64,000 bases of DNA from NCBI RefSeq assembly GCF_003812745.1, contig NZ_CP033831.1, positions 1,922,001 to 1,986,000 of the forward strand, written 5' to 3'. Below are positions 38,788 to 42,000 of the stretch, in pieces. Every line of letters begins with the position of its first letter. The stretch's first letter is position 1. Under the pieces are notes generated by a model, which saw nothing but the letters and a program-made list of their open reading frames with translations, did no database searches and was not told the origin of the DNA. The position numbers and the translations under genes are program-made. This DNA comes from Serratia sp. FDAARGOS_506 (GTDB taxonomy: Bacteria; Pseudomonadota; Gammaproteobacteria; Enterobacterales; Enterobacteriaceae).

Positions 38788-39843
38788 ATGCCGCAACCTC
38801 TGAACGCCCCTGAACATGCCCCACGCGCCTGGCCGCTGTGGAAACCGATCCTGTTTCTGCTGGTGGTGGCCGTCGGCCTCTACTACGTCAAATGGCAGCC
38901 GTACTACGGCAAGGCCTTCGTGGCGGCGGACAGCCACTCGATCGGCAAATCGATCCTGGCCGACGGCGCCGCGAGCCCTTGGCTGGCGGCCTGGCAGTAC
39001 GCGCTGGTCTACTTCACCGCAGTGTGGAAGGCGGCGCTGCTCGGGGTGCTGTTAGGTTCGCTGGTGCAGGTGCTGATCCCGCGCGACTGGCTGGCGCGCA
39101 CGCTCGGCCACCGGCGTTTTTCCGGCACCGTGCTGGGCGCGCTGATCGCGCTGCCGGGCATGATGTGCACCTGCTGTGCCGCACCGGTTGCCGCCGGCAT
39201 GCGCCGCCAGTCGGTGTCCAGCGGCGCCGCGCTGGCCTTTTGGCTCGCCAACCCGGTATTGAACCCGGCGACGCTGGTGTTCATGGGATTTGTGCTCGGT
39301 TGGCCGTTCGCCGCCATCCGTCTGGTGGCGGGCGTGGTGATGGTGCTGGGCATCGCCTGGCTGGTGCAGCGCGTGACCGCCAACGATCCGCAGCCTGCCG
39401 CGCCGCAGCCGCCGGTGATGACGGCGCAGAGCGACGAACGGCCGTTCCTTGCTCGCTGGGGCAAAGCGCTGTGGGCGCTGTTTTGGTCAACCATTCCGAT
39501 CTACGTGCTGGCGGTGCTGGCGCTGGGCGCGGCGCGGGTCTGGCTGTTCCCGCACGCCGACGGCGCCGTCGACAATAGCCTGCTGTGGATCGTTGCTCTG
39601 GCGATCGTCGGCTGCCTGTTCGTTATCCCCACCGCGGCGGAAATCCCGATCGTGCAGACCATGATGCTGGCGGGCATGGGCGCAGGCCCGGCGCTGGCGC
39701 TGCTGATGACCCTGCCGGCGGTCAGCCTGCCTTCGCTGCTGATGCTCAACAAGGCCTTCTCCACCCGGGCGCTGTGCCTGACGGCGGCGCTGGTGGCGCT
39801 GTGCGGCGCACTGACCGGCGTGGTGGGGATGGGGTTGGTGTAA
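38788..39843 (+). CDS. yraQ: YraQ, DUF318-family permease
   Basis: 351-residue inner-membrane protein of the ArsP/DUF318 permease family; about eight to ten helices. Conserved features: QVLIPRDWLARTLG, PGMMCTCCAAPVAAGMRRQ with the CTCC cysteines, FWLANPVLNPATLVFMGF and IPTAAEIPIVQTMMLAGMG. Related ArsP proteins export organoarsenicals; the YraQ substrate is unknown. Divergent from the phn cluster, which separates it from yraR. Confidence 0.93.
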   Translation: MPQPLNAPEHAPRAWPLWKPILFLLVVAVGLYYVKWQPYYGKAFVAADSHSIGKSILADGAASPWLAAWQYALVYFTAVWKAALLGVLLGSLVQVLIPRDWLARTLGHRRFSGTVLGALIALPGMMCTCCAAPVAAGMRRQSVSSGAALAFWLANPVLNPATLVFMGFVLGWPFAAIRLVAGVVMVLGIAWLVQRVTANDPQPAAPQPPVMTAQSDERPFLARWGKALWALFWSTIPIYVLAVLALGAARVWLFPHADGAVDNSLLWIVALAIVGCLFVIPTAAEIPIVQTMMLAGMGAGPALALLMTLPAVSLPSLLMLNKAFSTRALCLTAALVALCGALTGVVGMGLV

Positions 39844-40186
39844 CTTACCGTTGCTGATGAGTGGCCCGATGCTGTCTCAAGGGAGGAGATGGCACCTTTG
39901 AGCGTTTATGCACCGGCATAGCGTTTTATCTAAGCCATTTGGAGGCAGAAAAATGGATGGCTATATTTAAAGCGAAAATCCGGGTGCGTTATCGAGGAGG
40001 GGGTTGAGGGGGATTCGTTCTGGGCTGGCAGTGTCTACATATAGAACTGCCAGGCGGCTCTGAGCAGGGAGAATACGTGAATTTCTCATTGGCGCACAAG
40101 TCACACTAGAGGTATCTTCTTAATAAGAAGAGTGATATTTGACGGTTTATTTAGTGATATTCAGTTAGGTTTAAAAAGGAGTTTTT
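39844..40186. other. Non-coding junction upstream of nuclease-like gene
   Basis: 343 bases without a convincing gene, falling in GC toward the next gene. Two palindromes: CTGGCAGT/ACTGCCAG (40025-40032, 40046-40053) and TCTTCTTA-A-TAAGAAGA (40115-40131). The second lies about 55 bases before the gene start and directly upstream of a TTGACG hexamer (40139-40144), so it may be an operator. No tRNA fragment or long direct repeat was seen. Confidence 0.5.
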
Positions 40187-41188
40187 GTGGCATTATATAA
40201 CATTTCCAACAAAATATTGACACCTTTAGAGAGAACCTCGTTTTCTATTGAGGGATTGCAAGAGCGTTATGATTTGCAAACGGCAATTAAAAATAACATC
40301 ACCATATTGGCACCCGATTGTCTTGTCATCGCCGAAGAATTTTCTGACTGGGAAGATAGTCGGAGAAGGATTGATATATTAGCCATTGATAAACAGGCAA
40401 ACCTTGTAGTAATAGAATTAAAACGTGATGAGTTTGGTGCTCATATGGAACTCCAAGCATTAAGGTATGCGGCGATGATATCTACTATGAGTTTTTCTAA
40501 AGCATGTGAGTATTATCAGGACTACCTTTCTAAGAATAATGTTGATATTGATGCTAAAGAAAAAATACTAGACTTTGTTGAGATTCAAGATACGGAGCTT
40601 GTCGACTTTGGTAAAGATATAAGAGTTATATTGGCATCGGCTGGGTTTAGTAAGGAACTTACTACTACGGCGATTTGGTTAAGAGATAAAGGTGTTGATA
40701 TTAGCTGCGTGAAAATCACACCTTATAGTTTTAAAGGTGAGGTTCTAATTAATGCTGAGCAGATAATACCGGTCCCAGAGCTGAACGAATACCAAGTTAG
40801 ATTTAGAGAGAAGCGTATAGAGCAGATTGCCAACTCTAAAAAATCAGAAAAGGATTACTCAAGTTATAGATACAAAGGACTTGTCCTAAATAAAAGGAAT
40901 CTTGCTTTGGAGATCTTTACTGATTGGATAGAGAAGAATAATCCTGCTAACTTCGATGAACTGAGGGAAAAATTATTTGGAGTCATAAAAAATCGTACGA
41001 TAGCTTTAGCTGAATGTATTAGTGATGAGAGAAAGAATAGATACCATATGAATGATGATGATCTTATTGAGCTCGAATCAGGTGAAATAATAGTCATATC
41101 CAATCAATGGGGTATAGGTAACATTGAACGAGTTTTGGATTTTTTCCGCAAAGATGGCTTTGTTGTCGAAAAAGTTGAGGTTGAATAG
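40187..41188 (+). CDS. PD-(D/E)XK nuclease-like protein, AT-rich, probably acquired
   Basis: 333 residues from GTG 40187 behind AAAAAGGAG. Residues about 45-95 have a RecB/NucS-type nuclease core: Glu50/51, Asp63 in RRIDILAID, Glu77-x-Lys79 in VVIELKRD, and Gln90-xxx-Tyr94 in QALRY. Residues about 115-200 form a second domain (LASAGFSKELTTTAIWLRDKG, VLINAEQIIPVPE), and the C-terminal 100 residues look like a separate basic/winged-helix region. Composition is strongly AT-rich with codons unlike the GC-rich neighbours. A role in DNA defence or repair is only inferred. Confidence 0.75.
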   Translation: MALYNISNKILTPLERTSFSIEGLQERYDLQTAIKNNITILAPDCLVIAEEFSDWEDSRRRIDILAIDKQANLVVIELKRDEFGAHMELQALRYAAMISTMSFSKACEYYQDYLSKNNVDIDAKEKILDFVEIQDTELVDFGKDIRVILASAGFSKELTTTAIWLRDKGVDISCVKITPYSFKGEVLINAEQIIPVPELNEYQVRFREKRIEQIANSKKSEKDYSSYRYKGLVLNKRNLALEIFTDWIEKNNPANFDELREKLFGVIKNRTIALAECISDERKNRYHMNDDDLIELESGEIIVISNQWGIGNIERVLDFFRKDGFVVEKVEVE

Positions 41189-41242
41189 AAATAACAACTC
41201 TTTTATTTTTTTATAAAGCTCTGGGAGCTGTTCTACCCTACA

Positions 41243-41313
41243 TTATTAACGCACCACAGTGTTAATAACGTCTGCTTTTGGCACAGATCCGCCCATCAGA
41301 TTGGCTCTGTGCC
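41243..41313. repeat. Pair of hairpins downstream of nuclease-like gene
   Basis: TTATTAAC (41243-41250)/GTTAATAA (41261-41268) and GGCACAGA (41280-41287)/TCTGTGCC (41306-41313), both perfect 8-bp arms, lie between the AT-rich gene and nrdG. Neither has a T tract. They may be transcript ends or remnants of an integrated element. Confidence 0.5.
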
Positions 41314-41368
41314 CTAGCTGCGCGAAGTCAAGCTAGAGCTAACACATGTCGAGATACGTACTGCTAGC

Positions 41369-41833
41369 TCATCGCAACCTATGCACCACCTGGTTGCTGC
41401 TGCCGCGCCAAATCAGCGCCGGGTCTTTCAAATCCTGCACGAACTTGCCGTCGATCAGCACGTTGATCCTGTCCACCACCTGCATTTGCTGCTCGTCCAG
41501 CTCCGCAAGCCGGTAGCCGGTCCACAGCCAGATATCCTTGCCGGGGCATTCGGTGCGCACCCGTTTCACCAGCTTTAAGATGCTCGGGACGTTGGCCGGG
41601 TGCAGCGGATCGCCGCCGGAGAGCGACAGCCCCTGGCGCGGCACGCGCGTATCGTTCAGATCGGTGATGATGCGCTCTTCCAACTCCGGGGTAAACGGCT
41701 GGCCGGAGTTGAGCCGCCAGGTGCTCTTGTTGTAGCAACCGGGGCACTGGTGCACGCAGCCGGCGACAAACAGCGTGCAGCGGGTGCCGGGGCCGTTGAC
41801 GACGTCGATCGGATAATACTGGTGATAATTCAT
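41369..41833 (-). CDS. nrdG: Anaerobic RNR-activating protein NrdG
   Basis: Radical SAM activase that generates the glycyl radical on NrdD. The ATG at 41833 gives 154 residues, the E. coli length, beginning MNYHQYYPIDVVNGPG. The cluster motif is CVHQCPGC (Cx3Cx2C), followed by LSLSGGDPLHP. It lies 167 bases after nrdD; that gap contains palindromes rather than a tight coupling. Confidence 0.97.
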   Translation of the reverse strand: MNYHQYYPIDVVNGPGTRCTLFVAGCVHQCPGCYNKSTWRLNSGQPFTPELEERIITDLNDTRVPRQGLSLSGGDPLHPANVPSILKLVKRVRTECPGKDIWLWTGYRLAELDEQQMQVVDRINVLIDGKFVQDLKDPALIWRGSSNQVVHRLR

Positions 41834-42000
41834 GTGAGGCCCGCCCATCAGGCTATTTTACTGGCCATTTTGCCTCCGGGCAGTGCTCCCAATCCTCACG
41901 TACTGCGTGTACGCTCCGGTTTGTGCGCGCTGGCGAAGGCAAACTGGCTGCGACAACCACGCCTGATAAACAGGCTTCTGCATAGGCTGCGCGGCGTTTC
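41834..42000. repeat. Palindrome-rich intergenic element between nrdD and nrdG
   Basis: 167 bases containing CGTAC/GTACG arms within a CCTCACGTACTGCGTGTACG segment and a GCCTG-ATAAA-CAGGC hairpin. The first segment resembles short dispersed palindromes I recall from Serratia and Yersinia intergenic regions; only one copy is visible here, so repeat status rests on memory. Confidence 0.4.

Follow-up and report, generated by a model that had tools for sequence, protein, structure and literature searches.

A mobile PDC-S11 family gene at the variable yraQ-nrdG site of a Serratia chromosome: a candidate single-protein restriction-type nuclease

The gene studied here, found between yraQ and nrdG in a 64,000-nucleotide stretch of a Serratia chromosome (the window), belongs to PDC-S11, a catalogued single-gene defence candidate without described function. 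We consider it quite likely that the encoded protein is a defence nuclease of some kind. Our preferred explanation, which we hold to be probable, is a self-contained, horizontally moving defence gene encoding a single-protein restriction-type nuclease that would cleave DNA, recognise its target through a C-terminal module and protect the host against phages. The gene is a new example of a catalogued, uncharacterised defence candidate, and the wider result matters more. Sequence matches show that the C-terminal module of this protein also forms the N-terminus of McrB-type AAA+ proteins, a link that is new here and gives a concrete hypothesis of what PDC-S11 recognises.

An AT-rich gene for a predicted NucS-like nuclease

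An earlier note on this DNA had placed a gene of odd composition at this position, and both observations stand. The open reading frame runs from a GTG at 40187 to a stop at 41186-41188 and comprises 333 codons, with a GC content of 0.36 and a GC3 of 0.32. The 48 other long ORFs in the window have a mean GC3 of 0.77 (sd 0.10, minimum 0.47), and the neighbouring yraQ, nrdG and nrdD reach 0.85-0.88. A foreign origin of the gene is supported. No mobilising element was identified, because promoter and terminator scans around the gene found no more than chance and repeat searches there found no terminal repeats. A separate intergenic repeat of about 110-130 bp lies between nrdG and nrdD (41844-41977); it is present in many copies across the genomes of the genus, at 74-86% identity, and is ERIC-like in size and distribution.

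Assignment to PDC-S11 was decided by the PADLOC profile, which covers residues 1-318 of the 333 (profile positions 1-333 of 347) at E 4e-111 and thus gives full-length membership. Pfam, NCBIfam and PHROGs returned only sub-threshold matches to NucS, HSDR_N and Cas4. The AlphaFold model of the 333-residue protein (mean pLDDT 81) shows a nuclease domain at residues 25-188 and a C-terminal module at 222-333, joined by a linker (about 194-221) for which the prediction is poor. Compared with the NucS structure 2vld using VIA-align, the nuclease domain gave a Z of 11.9 and an rmsd of 2.1 Å over 108 residues, the next unrelated folds lying at Z 7-8. The earlier note had proposed a core of 110 residues followed by two further domains; the model replaces these by one extended nuclease domain and one C-terminal module. 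The core residues named at that time fared better. D63, E77, K79, Q90 and Y94 are kept in all 71 distinct homologues with NucS spacing in the profile alignment, and they align to their counterparts in P. abyssi NucS. Close homologues have therefore not lost the catalytic residues, and the predicted structure does contain a NucS-like fold.

The nearest solved structures, EndoMS and NucS, are DNA repair enzymes, and the protein matches the NCBIfam NucS family with 24.5 bits. The gene could on these grounds encode a mobile DNA-repair or mismatch endonuclease serving host genome maintenance. We judge this to be very unlikely, given that the NucS matches stay far under the curated cut-offs (24.5 against 216 bits in NCBIfam, 15.3 against 24 bits in Pfam), that the N-terminal domain of NucS is missing, that the family is patchy (37 of 395 genomes of the order) and that its members have swapped C-terminal modules and occur in plasmid, prophage-like and BREX contexts.

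A search of phage records yielded one distant and partial match only. In the literature covered, no biochemical or plaque data for PDC-S11 were found. The DefensePredictor study reports the validation of 13 E. coli PD-(D/E)XK systems (PMC13092281), one of which may be a relative.

Table 1. Features of the gene and its site, in window positions
Feature	Position	Strand	Basis
Gene of the PDC-S11 family (333 aa, start codon GTG) for a NucS-like nuclease with C-terminal module	40187..41188	+	ORF; PADLOC E 4e-111; purifying selection
Probable ribosome binding site AAGGAG, 5 bases before GTG	40176..40181	+	sequence; same stretch ahead of G006 copy
Predicted PD-(D/E)XK nuclease domain, residues 25-188, NucS/EndoMS-like	40259..40750	+	AlphaFold; VIA-align to 2vld
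D63 codon, aligns to P. abyssi NucS D160	40373..40375	+	71 homologues; 2vld alignment
E77-x-K79 codons, align to P. abyssi NucS E174, K176	40415..40423	+	71 homologues; 2vld alignment
Q90-xxx-Y94 codons, align to P. abyssi NucS Q187, Y191	40454..40468	+	71 homologues; 2vld alignment
C-terminal module, residues 222-333, common to N-terminus of McrB-type AAA+ proteins	40850..41185	+	sequence matches; model
yraQ-like permease gene, left conserved flank	38788..39843	+	ORF; genus comparison of site
nrdG, right conserved flank	41369..41848	-	ORF
Variable yraQ-nrdG interval	39844..41368	.	cargo swaps between roughly 40008-40070 left, 41266-41311 right
Transferred unit, about 1.25 kb, 90% identical to G006 copy at another chromosomal site	40053..41300	.	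comparison with G006

A variable site between yraQ and nrdG

Near-identical copies of the gene were found in only two of 30 genomes of the genus, namely G009 (98%), at the same site, and G006 (96%), beside the proBA genes. Between this genome and G006 the gene is 92% identical, whereas its yraQ neighbour is 81% identical. Vertical inheritance with normal codon use, which the earlier note had named as evidence against its reading, is not what we observe: the gene is patchy (3 of 30 species of the genus), occupies two sites and has abnormal codon use.

The gene is under strong purifying selection, with Ka 0.006 and Ks 0.078 against the G009 copy and Ka 0.020 and Ks 0.405 against the G006 copy (Ka/Ks 0.05-0.08). 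These values bear directly on the proposal, also made in the earlier note, that the gene might be the remnant of an island. A decaying remnant without function would agree with an AT-rich, isolated gene and with the IS elements or frameshifts that break some E. coli copies. This proposal is now largely refuted, since the gene is intact here, its Ka stays far under its Ks in both comparisons and the catalytic residues are invariant.

The gene had also been described as sitting at a synteny junction, and the comparison of 26 genomes of the genus bears this out: the yraQ-nrdG interval is variable among them (in G014, yraQ fell outside the 5 kb read). It is empty in 3 genomes (42-71 bp), holds a ParE-type toxin-antitoxin pair of about 680 bp in 10 and this gene in 2, and carries other cargo in the remaining 11. 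This other cargo includes a type I-B retron in G010 and G011 (E 3e-210 and 2e-102), GmrSD/HEC-06 with an Mrr-type nuclease in G012, PDC-S31 in G022 and a helicase partly like MkoA in G014. An acetyltransferase, a nitrilase-like protein and a monooxygenase-like protein are among the non-defence cargoes. The yraQ-nrdG interval, described here for the first time, is biased towards defence cargo; because several cargoes are not defence genes, we call it variable rather than purely defensive.

On other aspects of this site, the retron (loci L048 and L051, of G010 and G011) consists of a reverse transcriptase and an ATPase-TOPRIM protein. AT-rich cargo without a PADLOC or Pfam match was seen at L047 3238-4026 (G022), L053 3180-4721 (G024) and L055 1074-2147 (G001), and the proteins encoded there are candidates for uncharacterised defence genes.

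The C-terminal module and its company

The conserved positions of the C-terminal module include D223, G231, K236, R285, Q307 and W308. Residues 217-327 match large proteins of other genomes of the order at their N-termini (E 1.7e-10 and 2.3e-9), and in both of these a McrB-type AAA+ motor follows downstream, with L162 as a third case. Profile searches, including viral contigs, found the module in varied company. Its fusion partners include a further PD-(D/E)XK-like protein (L160), a membrane protein (L142), a KAP NTPase (L164, E 1.5e-37) and a protein (L161) whose similarity to a methyl-directed restriction enzyme is weak (E 9e-5). It also follows a ribbon-helix-helix-like segment in L140, L141 and L159 and an apparent helix-turn-helix, without Pfam confirmation, in L137. 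L149 and L150 are small stand-alone versions, encoded on viral contigs that measure 482 and 101 kb.

Modelled in isolation, the module reached a pLDDT of 90 and a pTM of 0.82. Foldseek returned nothing convincing for it, either against solved structures (best Z 4.6, which is no proof of a new fold) or against viral predicted structures (best E 0.045). Since solved structures gave no match, it is the company of other domains that points to a reader function. Searches of Pfam and NCBIfam gave no name for the domain, which merits being defined as a separate family.

The nuclease, in turn, is found with other modules. When the C-terminal parts of 71 family proteins were clustered, 44 had this module, either as such or in a more divergent version (hhalign probability between the two forms 96.7), 14 had DUF4268 (PF14088 at E 2e-39 for L091), 7 had an unnamed module and 4 had another one. 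The nuclease bears at least four alternative C-terminal modules, which is new here. DUF4268 has also been described on type IV restriction enzymes of the GmrSD kind (PMC4619093). That a single nuclease occurs with many modules, and a single module with many enzymes, is what one would expect of a nuclease whose recognition parts are exchangeable.

Distinct from the studied gene is a NucS-like nuclease from several genera of the order (L014, L016, L106 and relatives), which is about 360-370 aa long and has an unnamed C-terminal module. A PUA/EVE identity was considered for the seven-member module (L014, L096, L106); the likeness is by eye, Pfam does not support it and we do not claim it. At first, residue 228 of the CFT073 copy (H148) seemed to mark a domain swap; an IS630 insertion lies there, and the copy was dropped as evidence of swapping.

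In the mechanism that we favour, the NucS-type PD-(D/E)XK domain would cut DNA in a metal-dependent manner through D63, E77 and K79. The C-terminal module would recognise a feature of foreign DNA, like the specificity domains of type IV enzymes, and decide when or where cutting occurs. We hold it to be probable that the module is the recognition part. In this genome the nuclease would have to act alone or with core host factors. The likeliest feature to be recognised would be a base or backbone modification, with linear ends, ssDNA or branched DNA as alternatives. We place modified DNA first because the modules keep company with McrB, methyl-directed and GmrSD enzymes and because the genes lie near BREX and restriction-modification (RM) systems; as the actual target we advance it tentatively. 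Free ends, ssDNA and branched structures are substrates of NucS- and Shedu-type enzymes.

The same architecture could be read as a Shedu-like, sensor-controlled nuclease, in which the C-terminal module would sense a phage product or a DNA state (free ends, ssDNA) and unleash the nuclease, modified bases playing no part in recognition. The structural neighbours of the nuclease domain include SduA (Z 7.4-7.7), PADLOC gives a weak SduA match for one family member (E 0.004), and Shedu likewise pairs its nuclease with variable sensor domains, as cited in a recent survey (PMC12839542). Even so, the domain is nearer to NucS than to SduA (Z 11.9 against 7.7), Pfam gives no DUF4263 match, the variable modules lie at the C-terminus and not, as in Shedu, at the N-terminus, and the module is common to McrB-type proteins. 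Overall, we regard sensor control of this kind as unlikely.

Neighbourhoods of relatives and comparison with known systems

The earlier note described the gene as alone and without a recognisable partner. This is correct at yraQ-nrdG in this genome, where no brx genes lie beside it and the flanks are yraQ and nrdG. It does not extend to relatives, which have a natural neighbourhood: type I BREX for some and type I RM operons for the DUF4268 branch. A homologue of about 70% protein identity occurs in 552 of 5426 complete E. coli genomes. In the E. coli loci that were opened, it is divergent from and adjacent to the type I BREX gene brxA, and a gene for a phosphorothioate-DNA restriction endonuclease often flanks it on the other side. 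A joint query of brxA plus the gene was covered to at least 80% in 333 E. coli genomes and brxA alone in 345, all these E. coli figures being genome counts uncorrected for clonality. On a Klebsiella plasmid a relative adjoins brxA in the same arrangement, and in G008 and G010 DUF4268-type relatives have, judged by sequence and gene order, an hsdS-like gene on one side and an hsdR-like gene on the other. Type IV enzymes encoded by single genes at such locations are known to complement BREX or type I RM, as described for BrxU (PMC8565348) and TgvAB (PMC11411939). A 2026 survey found PD-(D/E)XK proteins to be the commonest auxiliary nucleases next to BREX, and its text does not name PDC-S11 (PMC12839542).

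With a near one-to-one linkage to brxA in E. coli (333/345) and DUF4268 relatives inside hsd operons, the protein could serve a larger system, BREX or type I RM, as an accessory effector that depends on a partner and is orphaned in this genome. We find this rather improbable, as no BREX or RM genes adjoin it at either site in the genus, nor in Pantoea or Photobacterium, and purifying selection is strong despite their absence. Purifying selection on a gene without adjoining BREX or RM genes favours a stand-alone function.

The E. coli PDC-S11 relatives are almost always next to type I BREX, yet the copy is broken in HS, the source of the six-gene BREX cluster used for mechanism studies (PMC11842806). 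In this strain (NC_009800.1; L166 4900-5307), truncation by IS1 and frameshifting have left a remnant of the gene beside brxA. The copies of EC958, CFT073, LA3 and F41 are also broken, some E. coli copies carrying IS elements or frameshifts. Some of the restriction observed with natural BREX islands could stem from this neighbour. Going further, we put forward a bolder and speculative proposal in two parts. The C-terminal module may be an unnamed, widely shared foreign-DNA recognition domain, interchangeable among McrB-type motors, NucS-like and other nucleases, a KAP NTPase and small virus-encoded proteins. The nuclease, for its part, may add a layer of restriction that has been overlooked; natural E. 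coli type I BREX loci would have it almost always, and the HS model cluster would lack it because its copy is broken.

Among known systems, the PDC-S11 entry resembles the studied protein in its full-length profile match and nuclease core, and differs by lumping several C-terminal modules. NucS/EndoMS (PF01939; PDB 2vld, 5gke) has the same predicted nuclease fold and the same D-E-K plus Q-Y pattern and spacing. In contrast to NucS, the studied protein has its nuclease at the N-terminus, bears an attached McrB-type module and scores below every curated cut-off; the N-terminal DNA-binding/dimerisation domain of NucS is absent, the nuclease starting at residue 25 and aligning to NucS residues 126-233. 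Shedu (SduA, DUF4263) is likewise a single-chain PD-(D/E)XK defence nuclease with variable extra domains. The studied protein differs from it by the lack of DUF4263 (none among Pfam matches at E up to 10), a weaker structural similarity and a variable module at the opposite end.

BrxU, GmrSD and TgvAB share the kind of neighbourhood seen in relatives, beside brx genes or inside hsd operons, and DUF4268 occurs on a sister branch of the family; the studied protein has a PD-(D/E)XK nuclease instead of DUF262/DUF1524. In McrBC type IV systems, some McrB-type AAA+ proteins bear a homologous module at their N-terminus. Unlike McrBC, the studied protein lacks the AAA+ GTPase (no Pfam AAA+ match) and a McrC partner (alongside are yraQ and nrdG), and its nuclease is in the same chain. 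The layout could be that of a type IV enzyme, with a nuclease identified by its model and the C-terminal module, common to the N-termini of McrB-type proteins, as a putative specificity domain.
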